Part shown: piece after piece, positions 36,356-41,368 of the stretch | How positions within the stretch are numbered: position 1 is the stretch's first letter | Layout of the letters: the number at the start of each line of letters is the position of its first letter | Assembly (NCBI GenBank): GCA_017515475.1 | Contig: JAFWFS010000007.1 | Coordinates: 186,001 to 250,000 of the forward strand | Direction of reading: 5' to 3' | DNA: 64,000 nt | Origin: Erysipelotrichaceae bacterium | GTDB lineage: Bacteria > Bacillota_I > Bacilli_A > Erysipelotrichales > Erysipelotrichaceae | Notes under the pieces: model-generated | Told to the model about the DNA's origin: nothing | Databases searched by the model: none | The model's input: only the letters and a program-made list of their open reading frames with translations | Made by a program: the position numbers and the translations under genes

Positions 36356-37354
36356 TCACTGTTTATGTTCGTTCATATGGCCAAGAAACTGCAGAGTTAC
36401 AGCGGCAATCACAATAAACAGCTCAAGATAAGAATAAGAAGGCAACACCTTGAATATGGTATTCAACGCTAGCAGAAGCAGCAGACAGAAAGCCAACGTT
36501 TGATAAACATTCAGTTTCTTTTCTTCCTTTTCTTTTTTCACAACTTCTTCTTTTGCCTCTTCTTCATCTTCGTTGATCAGCTCAACAATATCGGCAGATG
36601 TGATAACGCCGACGATCTTGCCAGTCTCTTTGCTTAAGACCGGAATGGAATCTTCGGAGTAGTCAGCCAATGTATCGATAGCTGCTTCCGTGACTTCTTC
36701 CTTATCATAGACAAACGGGTAAGAGAGAATGATCTTGTCTTCCAGATCTTCATCCTTTTTGGTGATCAGCAGATCGCGCAAAGTAAGAGCGCCATAGAAC
36801 TGGCCATCCTTTTCTATGTAAAGAGTCTCAATATTGTCGTTCTCTTCGGCTTCTTCGATCAGCTGTTCGATGGAAGCCTTGATACCTATGCCATGTTCCA
36901 GTGTTATATAGTTTGTCGTCATCAGGGAACCGAATTGATTGTCTTTATAGGATTTCAGCAGTTCGATATCGCTCTTTGATTCCGGTTCGATCAAAGAAAT
37001 GATCTCATCGGCCTTCTTCTGATCAAGTCCTTCCAGAATATCGATTGCATCGTCGGCATCCATTTCTTCCAGAATATCGGCAGCAGATTCGTTTTCCAGT
37101 TCAGCAAAGTACTTGTCGACATCTTCATCCAGATAGGCAAATATACGGCTTGTTGCTTCGATACCGATCGCCTTGTACAGTCTTTTTCTTTCTTCAGGAG
37201 AAAGATATGTCAGGGCATCGGCAATATCGTTGTCGTGGTAATTGGTCAGCGTCTGAGCAAGCAGTTTTGAATTCCTGGTCTTGCGTATCAGGTCAAAGAT
37301 CTCTTGTGTATAATTTCTTTCTTCAATGTTTTCTTCGATAATCTTGTTAGCCAT
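36356..37354 (-). CDS. MgtE-like Mg2+-sensor protein (N and CBS domains, pore domain replaced)
   Basis: A 332-residue protein. Residues about 15-135 form the MgtE N domain (superhelix; DNDIADALTYLSPEERKRLY, ADILEEMDADDAIDILEGLD). Residues about 138-265 form the paired CBS domains, beginning FGSLMTTNYITL and containing GVITSADIVELI. In MgtE these bind several Mg2+ ions and gate the channel. The five-helix pore is missing: after a charged linker (about 263-281) only two hydrophobic segments follow (282-304, 308-326), then HMNEHKQ. No remnant of the pore is found downstream, so this is not a simple frameshift. It lies 12 bases after the MgtA-type ATPase gene. Proposed role as sensor subunit is inference. 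Confidence 0.8.
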   Translation of the reverse strand: MANKIIEENIEERNYTQEIFDLIRKTRNSKLLAQTLTNYHDNDIADALTYLSPEERKRLYKAIGIEATSRIFAYLDEDVDKYFAELENESAADILEEMDADDAIDILEGLDQKKADEIISLIEPESKSDIELLKSYKDNQFGSLMTTNYITLEHGIGIKASIEQLIEEAEENDNIETLYIEKDGQFYGALTLRDLLITKKDEDLEDKIILSYPFVYDKEEVTEAAIDTLADYSEDSIPVLSKETGKIVGVITSADIVELINEDEEEAKEEVVKKEKEEKKLNVYQTLAFCLLLLLALNTIFKVLPSYSYLELFIVIAAVTLQFLGHMNEHKQ

Positions 37355-37366
37355 GATTTCTCCCTT

Positions 37367-39982
37367 CTAGATCCACTTTCCGAATCTTCTGATATAAATG
37401 GTCTTCATTACCTGTGCAAGCAGAAGATAGATAAGCATCAGTGCCGCAAGCCACAGGACATATATATATGGCAGCGGATGCATATCGAATATATAAGCGA
37501 TACTTGTCAGACCGATAGCTAGAGTTACCAGTACGACAGTTGAAGTCGACAAGGCCAGTTCCCGGCCGACTTTTGATCCGATAAACGGGAACTTATGCGT
37601 TCTGATCGTATGAATGACCAGGGTCTGTGAGATGACACCGAACATAAACCAGCCGCACTGGAAGTATTCCGCTTTCTCGATGTTCTTAAATCCAAAAACA
37701 TACCAGAGTACCAGGAAGCAGAGGATATCCAGTACCGTTGATGTCAGTCCGAAATAGAACATGAAGGACTTGAGCGATTCGGTGTTCCATTCCATCGGTT
37801 TATCGATGTATTCTTCTTCGACATTGTCGTATGGCATGCCAAACTGGGCAAAGTCATTCAGGATGTTCTGTATGAGGATATGCACCGGCTTCAAAGGTAA
37901 AAACGGCAGGGCAATTGAAGCAATCAGTACAGATATCATATTCCCGAAGTTTCCGGAAATAGCCATCTTGAGATACTTGTTCATGTTGGCAAAAGTCCTT
38001 CTGCCTTCCTTAACGCCTTCATCCAGCACATTCAGATCCTTTTCCAGCAGGATGATATCAGCGACTTCCTTGGCGATATCGACGGCTGTATCAACAGAGA
38101 TGCCGACATCTGCCTGTTTTAAAGGCGGCGCATCGTTGATACCATCGCCCATATAGCCTACGACATGGCCAAGATCCTGATAGGTCTCAACAATCCGTTT
38201 TTTCTGAAGCGGATTGAGCTTGGCAAAAATCTGTGTTTTCTGGCAAGCGCTCTTCAGCTGACCATCATTCATGATTTCGACATCACTGCCCGAATAGGCA
38301 TAAGTCGTGTCAATACCGATGCGATTGCAGATATTGATTGCAACCGGTTTGGAATCACCGGTCAGCACGACAGTTCTGATACCGTTGTCTTTCAGGGCTT
38401 TGATAGCTGAGATAGATGATTCTTTTGGAGGATCGAGGAAACCGATAAAGCCCAGGAGAACCATGTCCTTTTCATCATCCTGCGAAAACTGGTCGATCGC
38501 CGGAATCTCGTTTTTCTGAGCGACAGCAATGACTCTGATGCCTTCAGCACCGTTATCTTCCGAAATCTGATAGGCGTTCTTCCTCAACTGTTCATCCATC
38601 GGCAATACCTGGCCGTCAACTTCCACAAAGGCACAGTTGGCTATGATCTCATCAACTGCTCCCTTGGTGATCAGCTGTCTTTTCAGTTTGCGGTCACGCA
38701 GGACGACTGACATCTTCCTTCTGGCAAAATCAAACGGAATTTCATCCTCCCTGACATAGGAACGTTTCAGATAATCCAGACCTTCTTTTTCTCCTCTGGC
38801 AATGATCGCTCTGTCCATCAGGTTCTTGAGACCTGTCTGAAAATAACTGTTGAGAAAAGCGTGGCGCAGCACGCGCAGATCTTCATTTCCTTTCGGATCG
38901 AGGTACTTTTCAAGGATGATTTCATCCCGGGTCAAAGTGCCTGTCTTGTCCGTACATAGAATATCCATTTCGCCAAACGTCTGTATCGAGCCAAGCTGCT
39001 TGACTATGGTCTTCTTTCTTGACATGGAGATGGCACCTTTAGCCAAAGATGAAGTAATCATGACCGGAAGCATCTCCGGCATAAGACCGACTGCGATGGT
39101 GATTGCAAAGATGATGGAATCCAGCAGTACATGCTTGGTAAAGAAATTGGTCAGGAAGATGACGGGTACCATCACCAGCATGAACTTGATCAGCAAGGAA
39201 GTGATGGATTCCATGTTCTTGTCAAAGACGGATTTCTCGCCCTGATTGTTGAGTGTCTTGGACATGGTACCGAAATAAGTATTGTTACCGGTCAGCAGAA
39301 CGATAGCTCTGGCGGAACCGGACACAATATCGCATCCCATGAAACCAATATCAGAAAGATCGGTAATATTGTCGCTTTCTTTCACATAGGTGTATTTTTC
39401 CACCGGATTGGATTCACCGGTCAGCTGGGCCTGATCAACGAATAGGTCCTTCGTCTCGATGAAACGAACGTCTCCTGGTATCAGGTCACCTGATCCCAGA
39501 ATGACAAGATCTCCGGGGACACAGTCTTCGATCGAGATCTGCATTTTCTTGCCCTGTCTGACGACATTGACTTTCGTTACGATCATCTCCTGCAGGGCTT
39601 TTGCCGCAGCATCGGATTTCTGTGCCTGTATAAATGAAGTGGCAGATGAAATGAAGACGATGATAATCAGCATGATGATCGTCGCATAGGATGGTGTATC
39701 TGCCATGACGACGTCGGTAAAATAGCTGACTGCGACTACCGCCAGCAGAACGATATTGAAAGGATTGATGATTGCTTCTTTGAGTCTGGTGAAGATTGAA
39801 TTCTCATTCCCTGTGGATATCACATTCGAGCCGTATTTTTCACTTCTTTCTTCGATCTGCTCCTGAGAAAGACCATCATTATTCACAGAAAAAAGATCGA
39901 GTACTTCTTCATTTGACATCTCAGAAAAAGATGTCAGTTTCTCCTCGACTTCACTGCTAAATCTTCTCTTGTTTTTTTCCAT
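37367..39982 (-). CDS. mgtA: Magnesium-translocating P-type ATPase (MgtA type)
   Basis: An 871-residue P3B ATPase importing Mg2+ across the membrane. TGES actuator motif at 188-191, membrane helix 4 motif VGLMPEMLPVMITSSLAKGA characteristic of MgtA/MgtB, phosphorylation site DKTGTLT with Asp345, nucleotide-domain TKGA and hinge GDGINDAPPL, and ten predicted helices. The start follows GGAGG, which lies inside the leader hairpin at 39987-40010. First full gene of a two-gene unit with the MgtE-like sensor. Confidence 0.95.
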   Translation of the reverse strand: MEKNKRRFSSEVEEKLTSFSEMSNEEVLDLFSVNNDGLSQEQIEERSEKYGSNVISTGNENSIFTRLKEAIINPFNIVLLAVVAVSYFTDVVMADTPSYATIIMLIIIVFISSATSFIQAQKSDAAAKALQEMIVTKVNVVRQGKKMQISIEDCVPGDLVILGSGDLIPGDVRFIETKDLFVDQAQLTGESNPVEKYTYVKESDNITDLSDIGFMGCDIVSGSARAIVLLTGNNTYFGTMSKTLNNQGEKSVFDKNMESITSLLIKFMLVMVPVIFLTNFFTKHVLLDSIIFAITIAVGLMPEMLPVMITSSLAKGAISMSRKKTIVKQLGSIQTFGEMDILCTDKTGTLTRDEIILEKYLDPKGNEDLRVLRHAFLNSYFQTGLKNLMDRAIIARGEKEGLDYLKRSYVREDEIPFDFARRKMSVVLRDRKLKRQLITKGAVDEIIANCAFVEVDGQVLPMDEQLRKNAYQISEDNGAEGIRVIAVAQKNEIPAIDQFSQDDEKDMVLLGFIGFLDPPKESSISAIKALKDNGIRTVVLTGDSKPVAINICNRIGIDTTYAYSGSDVEIMNDGQLKSACQKTQIFAKLNPLQKKRIVETYQDLGHVVGYMGDGINDAPPLKQADVGISVDTAVDIAKEVADIILLEKDLNVLDEGVKEGRRTFANMNKYLKMAISGNFGNMISVLIASIALPFLPLKPVHILIQNILNDFAQFGMPYDNVEEEYIDKPMEWNTESLKSFMFYFGLTSTVLDILCFLVLWYVFGFKNIEKAEYFQCGWFMFGVISQTLVIHTIRTHKFPFIGSKVGRELALSTSTVVLVTLAIGLTSIAYIFDMHPLPYIYVLWLAALMLIYLLLAQVMKTIYIRRFGKWI

Positions 39983-39984
39983 AT

Positions 39985-40047
39985 AAAAAGCCTCCAGTTA
40001 AGGCGGCTTTGCTTTAATCCTGTTTAAAAGAAGTCAGCGAAAGCCGC
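39985..40047 (-). promoter_or_regulatory. Candidate attenuator in the mgtA leader (mutually exclusive hairpins)
   Basis: Segment 1, GCGGCTTT (40047-40040, inside the leader ORF), is perfectly complementary to segment 2, AAAGCCGC (40010-40003). Segment 2 extended (AAAGCCGCC, 40010-40002) also pairs with segment 3, GGAGGCTTT (39995-39987), with one internal mismatch and a TTAACT loop. The 2:3 hairpin hides the mgtA ribosome binding site GGAGG and is followed by U residues, so it could block translation and perhaps terminate transcription. Pairing 1:2 would free the site. Pairings are directly seen; regulation is inferred. Confidence 0.65.
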
Positions 40048-40088
40048 AAGTTACAGATACACGATAAAGGATTTTCTTCAGCTTCCAT
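40014..40088 (-). CDS. Leader peptide upstream of mgtA (24 residues)
   Basis: A short ORF beginning MEAEENPLSCICN and ending LTSFKQD, with AAAGAGG seven bases before its ATG and about 16 bases after a predicted transcription start. The first seven residues contain three Glu and a Pro, a composition like the acidic/Pro-rich nascent chains that destabilise translating ribosomes at low Mg2+ in E. coli MgtL. Codons 14-17 overlap segment 1 of the attenuator, so a translating ribosome would mask it. Stop lies just before segment 2. Expression is unproven. Confidence 0.6.
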   Translation of the reverse strand: MEAEENPLSCICNLRLSLTSFKQD

Positions 40089-40110
40089 TGATAAACCTCT
40101 TTCTGTCTTT

Positions 40111-40119
40111 ATTCTATCA
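40111..40119 (-). promoter_or_regulatory. Extended -10 promoter of the mgtA leader
   Basis: TGATAGAAT (40119-40111) matches an extended -10; the expected start near 40104 gives a 16-base untranslated region before the leader ORF. No good -35 is seen, as expected for extended -10 promoters. Confidence 0.5.
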
Positions 40120-40162: not shown

Positions 40163-41368
40163 TTATATCTTTGCCAGTGACAGAATCTTCAGGATCAGTT
40201 CAACGGCCTTTTCTCCGTCTTCCTTGCACCAGAACTCATGGACACCGTGGAAATTCTGCCCTCCGGTTCCAAGGTTCGGACACAGAATGCCGTTCCATGT
40301 CAGGCTGGCTCCGTCCGTTCCGCCGCGGATGGCGACTTCTTTATACTCCAGCCCTGTTTCGGCCATGGCCTTCTTGACCAGTTCGATCGGCTCTTCATGG
40401 CCTACGAACTTTTCCTTCATGTTGCGGTAACTGTCGGTGATCTGAAGTTCTATCACATTGTACCCGTACTTCTGATTCAAGGTATCGGCAATCCTGCGAA
40501 AGTCCTCCTTCTGTTTGTTAAGAAGATCCATGTCGTGGTTACGGATGATATAGGACATCTCCGCCCTTCCGACTTCCCCCTTAAGATCCATCAGCATGTT
40601 GAAGCCTTCATAGCCCTCGGTTTTTTCCGGTACAGCGGCCGGATCCATCATTCCATGAAATTCATGAGCTACCTGCAGTGCATTAACCATCTTATCCTTG
40701 GCAGAACCCGGATGAACGGAAATGCCGTTGACAGTAATCCTGGCACTTGCGGCATTAAAGTTTTCATACTCGATGCAGTTCGGTTTATCTCCGTCTACGG
40801 TATAGGCAAAATCACATGTAAACCGGTCATAATCGAAATGCTGCGTGCCTCTGCCTACTTCTTCATCCGGAGAGAAACAGACTCTGACCGGTGCATGTTT
40901 GATTTCCGGATGATTTACCAGTGTCTCCAGTACTTCCATTATGCAGGCAACTCCGGCCTTGTCATCGGCACCGAGAAGCGTATTGCCGTCCGTAACAACC
41001 AAAGTCTTTCCGATATAGTCCTTAAGATTCGGAAAACGTTCTACCGTCGTATACAGGTTTTCATTCAGCCGGATATCTTCTCCGTCGTAGTTCTCGATGA
41101 TACGCGGATTTACATCTGTTCCCGAAGCCTGCTGGGAAGTATCCATATGGGCATTCAGACCGATCGTCAGATACTCCGGATCCCCCGGCAGATAGCCGTA
41201 AACATAACAGTACTCATCCAGAACCGTATCTTCCAACCCAAGTCTGTTGAGTTCATCCAGAAGATGCCGAGCCAGTTTCCATTGTCCTGAAGAACTTGGA
41301 AAAGTCTCGCTCTCCTCAAAGCTTGTCGTATCGTATTTTACATAATCCAGCAGTTTATCAATCAGCAT
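40163..41368 (-). CDS. pepT: Peptidase T (tripeptide aminopeptidase)
   Basis: A 401-residue M20B zinc peptidase releasing the N-terminal residue of tripeptides in the cytosol. Metal-site motifs: GLNAHMDTSQ, LLGADDKAGVA, SPDEEVGRG and GGTDGASLTWNGI with GTGGQNFHGVHEF near the end. A dimerisation/lid insertion (residues about 205-310) includes GISVHPGSAK. Twelve bases downstream of polC, it probably shares the rnc-polC transcript. Confidence 0.95.
   Translation of the reverse strand: MLIDKLLDYVKYDTTSFEESETFPSSSGQWKLARHLLDELNRLGLEDTVLDEYCYVYGYLPGDPEYLTIGLNAHMDTSQQASGTDVNPRIIENYDGEDIRLNENLYTTVERFPNLKDYIGKTLVVTDGNTLLGADDKAGVACIMEVLETLVNHPEIKHAPVRVCFSPDEEVGRGTQHFDYDRFTCDFAYTVDGDKPNCIEYENFNAASARITVNGISVHPGSAKDKMVNALQVAHEFHGMMDPAAVPEKTEGYEGFNMLMDLKGEVGRAEMSYIIRNHDMDLLNKQKEDFRRIADTLNQKYGYNVIELQITDSYRNMKEKFVGHEEPIELVKKAMAETGLEYKEVAIRGGTDGASLTWNGILCPNLGTGGQNFHGVHEFWCKEDGEKAVELILKILSLAKI

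Follow-up and report, generated by a model that had tools for sequence, protein, structure and literature searches.

A conserved short ORF preceding mgtA in Erysipelotrichaceae is a likely leader-peptide attenuator

Within a 64,000-nucleotide (nt) stretch of an Erysipelotrichaceae bacterium genome (assembly GCA_017515475.1, contig JAFWFS010000007.1, positions 186,001 to 250,000; hereafter, the window), a 24-codon open reading frame (ORF) encoding MEAEENPLSCICNLRLSLTSFKQD and ending in TAA lies on the minus strand (40014..40088) directly 5' of mgtA, the gene for a Mg2+-importing P-type ATPase. Comparison with relatives indicates that this leader ORF is real and selected at the level of its peptide, and we consider it likely that it acts as a cis-acting leader-peptide attenuator of mgtA, in which an acidic nascent chain at low Mg2+ would lead to ribosome drop-off or to a halt at Pro-Leu-Ser. 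The ribosome's reading of the leader ORF would then probably decide mgtA expression. Nascent peptides that sense Mg2+ have so far been reported in enteric bacteria (MgtL, MgtQ), and by analogy the leader would be their Gram-positive parallel; our comparisons support a leader peptide and a switch, while Mg2+ as the signal and the mechanism of its action are suggested by the enteric systems.

Conservation of the leader ORF

The leader ORF is flanked by pepT (40163..41368) and by the gene that it is proposed to regulate, mgtA (37367..39982, minus strand), whose 871-amino acid (aa) product is identified by its match to the TIGR01524 profile (1005.6 bits against a cut-off of 610.75). A first-pass annotation of the window had proposed an unannotated 24-codon ORF at this position, with AAAGAGG seven bases 5' of the ATG and an extended -10 element upstream, and all three are borne out. 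The AAAGAGG Shine-Dalgarno (SD) sequence lies at 40096..40102 on the minus strand, where a purine-rich site is found in 14/14 aligned leaders, and the extended -10 promoter element of the leader transcript, TGaTAGAAT, lies at 40111..40119 on the same strand, with a TGnTAnnAT-like block at the same place in most of the 14 aligned leaders. Judging from the SD, the start and the conservation of the peptide, the ORF is predicted to be translated.

To follow the leader across the genus, for which 36 species were sampled, we compared 14 genomes (the window's own and 13 with MgtA 75-97% identical) together with G015, in which the contig breaks inside mgtA (leader L203). All 15 same-genus species with a readable mgtA 5' region carry the leader ORF, always directly 5' of mgtA and about 106-132 nt from it, such that the ORF and its start are conserved in the relatives in which the first-pass annotation had proposed to look for them. 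The N-terminal consensus M[ED]xx[ED]xPLS is likewise found in 15/15 leaders, with the N-termini MEAEENPLSC, MEAGENPLSC, MEASEVPLSC, MEATEIPLSC, MEATDVPLSC, MEAAEIPLSC, MEAAEVPLSC, MDASEVPLSC, MEAGEVPLSL, MESAEIPLSS, MEVSEIPLSI and MEVSEVPLSI, while past this stretch the peptides are unconserved and vary in both sequence and overall length (15-25 aa). The three Glu and one Pro previously remarked upon in the first seven residues are indeed present in the window sequence; in the alignment, however, Glu4 is unique to the window genome, and it is the acidic positions 2 and 5 and Pro7-Leu8-Ser9 that are conserved. Cys10 is not conserved.

A search of 61 genomes with the N-terminal DNA pattern, allowing 0-1 mismatch, returned 16 matches: 14 directly 5' of an mgtA match, one (G015) 5' of mgtA on the broken contig and a stray GTG hit (G031:C147). 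The same search found the pattern absent from genomes of the genus that lack this mgtA. Three same-genus species (L016, L017, L022) contain a diverged mgtA type (MgtA 54-55%), and here the leaders begin with MEDPLSR or MEDPLSY. The Pro-Leu-Ser codons in these leaders are CCT TTA/TTG AGT, as opposed to CCT TTA TCG in the main group, and the retention of the residues despite the codon change therefore argues that the peptide itself is under selection. Within the main group, the constraint extends further. Codons 7-9 (40062..40070, minus strand) are nucleotide-invariant as CCT TTA TCG in 14/14 leaders, whereas in the mgtA coding sequences of the same genomes, the residue-invariant columns that are also codon-invariant number only 2/21 for Pro, 2/52 for Leu and 0/31 for Ser, and TTA makes up 5% of Leu codons. 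Against such nearly free synonymous change, the invariance of the leader codons points to a constraint beyond the amino acids, which we would guess to be codon-specific slow decoding or arrest.

Alternative helices and a proposed switch

What makes the ORF regulatory is a set of three RNA elements that were overlooked in the first-pass annotation. In the genus alignment, elements 2, 3 and 4 are the sole strongly conserved blocks 3' of the leader N-terminus, and their roles were assigned from the alignment together with pairing analysis. Element 2 (GGCGGCU; GCGGCUUU at 40040..40047 in the window, minus strand) is the antisequestor strand and lies within the ORF, as in the window, or at its end, in a reading frame that varies between leaders. 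Element 3 (AAAGCCGCC, 40002..40010, minus strand) can pair with either element 2 or element 4, the last of which (GGAGGCUUUUU, 39985..39995, minus strand; alignment block GGAGGCUUUUUAUAUG, covering the mgtA SD and start) comprises the mgtA SD and spacer. Helix 2:3 is GC-rich, with about 7-8 bp and an energy of -12.6 to -14.6 kcal/mol, while helix 3:4 (-9.4 kcal/mol) masks the mgtA SD and is also weakly terminator-like. Folding with element 2 blocked, in imitation of a ribosome sitting on it, leaves the mgtA SD closed in 14/14 leaders (accessibility 0.2); with element 2 unblocked, helix 2:3 forms at equilibrium in many, though not all, leaders. The overlapping 2/3/4 triple occurs in 16/16 leaders versus 0.8% of dinucleotide shuffles, with thresholds that were set post hoc on a feature already seen, a stricter SD-overlap version having failed most leaders before it was relaxed.

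More generic measures of structure are less telling. Single-strand folding of the window leader does not differ significantly from shuffles (z -0.70), as the signal sits in the alternative rather than the maximal structure, and a generic duplex and swap test on 48 leaders is weak overall (mean z -0.75), with strong results in L001, L016 and L040. A stem between the ORF start and element 2, present in the minimum-energy fold of the window leader, was rejected as it is by eye not conserved in relatives. The same fold pairs a pyrimidine tract 3' of element 2 (40027..40034, minus strand) with the leader's own SD, to which it is complementary; the tract recurs loosely in relatives, and self-masking of the leader is possible.

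From these elements, we propose the following switch. With ample Mg2+, the ribosome would read through M[ED]xx[ED]xPLS and cover element 2, leaving hairpin 3:4 to mask the mgtA ribosome-binding site (RBS). At low Mg2+, the acidic N-terminal nascent chain would cause the ribosome to drop off, or the ribosome would halt at Pro-Leu-Ser; element 2 would thereby remain free, helix 2:3 would form during transcription, and the mgtA RBS would be open. Element 2 starts 13-16 nt past the Pro-Leu-Ser codons in 13/14 leaders, while the position of the leader stop codon relative to it varies between -2 and +34, a contrast that supports failure around Glu5-Ser9 as the event exposing element 2. With regard to the output, the U-run after element 4 is short, and in L006 it is broken (GGCUUAUUAU) with the stem kept, which for this genus speaks for masking of the RBS rather than termination. 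Translation initiation is most likely the control point here, whereas the related leaders L038 and L040 use true terminators.

The same 2:3 versus 3:4 logic is, by predicted pairing, rebuilt from unrelated sequences in other leaders, for which the elements were chosen by eye and checked afterwards. In the MEDPLS group, helix 2:3 takes the forms CACCACAG:CUGUGGUG, ACCACAA:UUGUGGU and ACCGCAG:CUGCGGU, with two compensatory changes, and the alternative is an anti-SD:SD pairing. The leaders of L038 (MEEPQSR) and L040 (MEDSQSR) oppose an antiterminator to an intrinsic terminator, and the mycoplasma-like leaders MELQSGER, MELQSSER, MEVQSSDR and MELPSCER set AGUAGC:GCUACU-type pairing against anti-SD:SD.

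Mechanism and relation to known systems

In the logic of its RNA helices the leader resembles MgtQ, and in preceding mgtA it resembles MgtL; homology to neither is demonstrable. Like MgtL of E. coli and Salmonella, it is a short, SD-led ORF 5' of mgtA with an acidic, Pro-containing start, whose incomplete translation is proposed to turn mgtA on. In MgtL, ribosomes drop off at low Mg2+ because of the EPDP motif, which in E. coli takes effect through a Rho-dependent terminator (PMC11282234), in contrast to the RBS-masking hairpin of this leader. When compared to the E. coli MgtL peptide (17 letters, L260, taken from NC_000913), M1, E2, P7 and L8 are identical (4/9 of the first residues), a match too short to decide descent. 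The differences are that our leaders are 15-25 aa long, have acidic residues at positions 2 and 5 rather than 2 and 4 and Ser rather than Pro at position 9, and lack the Arg run. Salmonella MgtQ, encoded by an upstream ORF of mgtB, has Asp2 and Glu5, the replacement of which with Ala lowers MgtB, and a 2:3 helix that competes with an RBS-masking 3:4 stem (PMC8092293). The genus leaders share both the acidic codons 2 and 5 and the mutually exclusive pairings before a Mg2+ P-type ATPase, here on the basis of sequence and energy alone. Unlike the 8-codon MgtQ ORF between mgtC and mgtB, however, the ORF in the window has 24 codons and lies between pepT and mgtA, and stem 1:2 of MgtQ is without an established conserved equivalent. 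As in the classical attenuators (trp, the ilvB upstream ORF, erm), the position of a ribosome on a short ORF would select between two helices, although this leader has no run of regulated codons and is proposed to respond to an ion through the stability of the ribosome.

The M-box (ykoK) riboswitch (RF00380) is a known means of Mg2+ control over transporter genes in Bacillota, and at other surveyed loci it is found 5' of mgtA and a short ORF. In the window, the Rfam scan matches only a T-box and two tRNAs elsewhere; an M-box or other known RNA at the leader was therefore rejected, and the leader is without aptamer-like structure. The same Rfam library detects an M-box in 12/20 other mgtA loci.

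The earlier suggestion of a Gram-positive MgtL counterpart that senses Mg2+ is thus upheld in so far as the leader ORF is under peptide selection, has early acidic and Pro residues and is followed by exclusive helices; by analogy with MgtL and MgtQ, low Mg2+ may act as the trigger, through nascent-chain destabilization of the ribosome or through its arrest at the invariant Pro-Leu-Ser codons. The first-pass annotation also knew of no described leader peptide for mgtA in this lineage, and we likewise found none published for Gram-positives in the open literature searched (subscription journals being mostly outside it).

Several observations weigh against this interpretation. The ribosome-free equilibrium fold does not always favor helix 2:3, and the switch would therefore need to be kinetic, chosen during transcription. 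The conserved acidic residues number two only and form no acidic run, and a pure acidic-destabilization model does not need the third-position invariance of the Pro-Leu-Ser codons, which hints at arrest or codon-specific decoding. The leaders in the wider survey described below are diverse, and their counts are phylogenetically non-independent. Finally, the support comes from sequence and folding energies.

The most serious rival, though one we hold to be rather unlikely, keeps the same attenuator but replaces drop-off with programmed ribosome arrest at Pro-Leu-Ser, either nascent-chain- or codon-specific, in which the ribosome, stalled just 5' of element 2, would leave that element uncovered. 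The invariant codons 7-9, the scarcity of TTA and the 13-16 nt gap, which approximates the edge of a ribosome footprint while the stop wanders, all favor arrest, yet it leaves the conserved acidic residues 2 and 5 without a role, and the MEDPLS type has different Leu and Ser codons. Both events would yield the same predicted output, and they are indistinguishable from sequence. The fixed codons could also be read as those of a Pro/Leu/Ser/Cys starvation attenuator, in which a shortage of charged tRNA would halt the ribosome at PLSC and so open mgtA while Mg2+ is sensed elsewhere; there is precedent in MgtP, a leader that responds to charged tRNA-Pro in the mgtCBRU operon of Salmonella (PMC8092293). 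This we regard as improbable, as there is a single codon for each amino acid and no run, Cys10 varies, the downstream genes serve Mg2+ transport rather than amino-acid metabolism, and the acidic residues go unexplained.

Still less credible are the explanations that dispense with the peptide. The strong nucleotide-level conservation of the blocks might suggest a Mg2+-responsive RNA with an incidental ORF, but the leaders retain their SD and start codon, the frame and M[ED]..PLS, even though the diverged type uses other codons, element 2 sits in differing reading frames, and Rfam gives no match; we consider this very improbable. Short ORFs abound (94 with 20 aa or more are listed in 7.5 kb), but a chance ORF is already refuted, to the point of being negligible, by the 15/15 conservation and the linkage to mgtA.

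Should the preferred attenuator reading hold, the Gram-positive counterpart would differ from the enteric switches in both its peptide and its output (RBS masking or intrinsic termination). The generality of acidic nascent-chain ribosome destabilization as a physiological sensor would become directly testable in Bacillus, and natural leader peptides would be available for structural work.

Leaders at other loci and a neighboring gene

Our wider survey comprised 157 mgtA loci, from a class survey and a scan of named genomes, and, for comparison, 48 loci encoding other P-type ATPases. Short ORFs that follow an SD and whose second codon specifies Asp or Glu occur at 40/157 mgtA loci versus 2/48 other loci (Fisher p = 8e-4, with kinship ignored), and at the level of ORFs, D/E is found at codon 2 in 30% versus 7.2% of background ORFs. 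Examples include MDSNPRSRLC in Scatolibacter, MDEGSSTGIGPTGR in Trichococcus, MESQSINSPEPERPQ in Lactococcus cremoris and MDGSPSCRR in Bacillus sp. FJAT-27264 (L192), and several of the acidic-start leaders sit behind a true M-box. The evidence suggests that such leaders are widespread. It is a somewhat less than even prospect that acidic-start leaders (M[DE] followed by Pro/Ser/Gly) are widespread, largely unannotated Mg2+ sensors of mgtA in Bacillota and mycoplasmas, built repeatedly with unrelated helices and sometimes behind an M-box. If so, bacteria in general, and not the enterics alone, would sense Mg2+ through nascent chains that control ribosome stability or arrest.

Some short ORFs 5' of mgtA in varied Bacillota have similar starts, M[DE]xGSSSG followed by Pro and Gly-Arg. 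At the loci checked for an M-box (L147, L165, L167, L067 and L078), they lie downstream of one, an arrangement that possibly places two Mg2+ controls in tandem; others are found at L148, L179 and L157. The mycoplasma-like mgtA loci (L083, L066, L053, L069, L070, L085-L091) have leaders that follow an SD, abound in Pro, Ser and acidic residues and are without D/E at codon 2 (MTNAITPEPEPGEL, MSPLSSFNDEVPI, MSIPSQS and MNIPLENSD). Recurrent short ORFs also precede paralogous non-MgtA P-type ATPases (L223, L227, L229 and L230, L232, L228, L234), including MCDVINNR[EG], METYVSSQQSRL and leaders containing PTISA.

In the window, a gene for a 332-aa MgtE-like protein (36356..37354, minus strand) lies 12 bp 3' of mgtA and is probably in one operon with it. 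Its TIGR00400 score of 106.7 bits is below the cut-off of 232.75. The protein has N and CBS domains and, by eye, about two membrane helices, with the channel domain seemingly missing, and is possibly a Mg2+-sensing regulator of MgtA.
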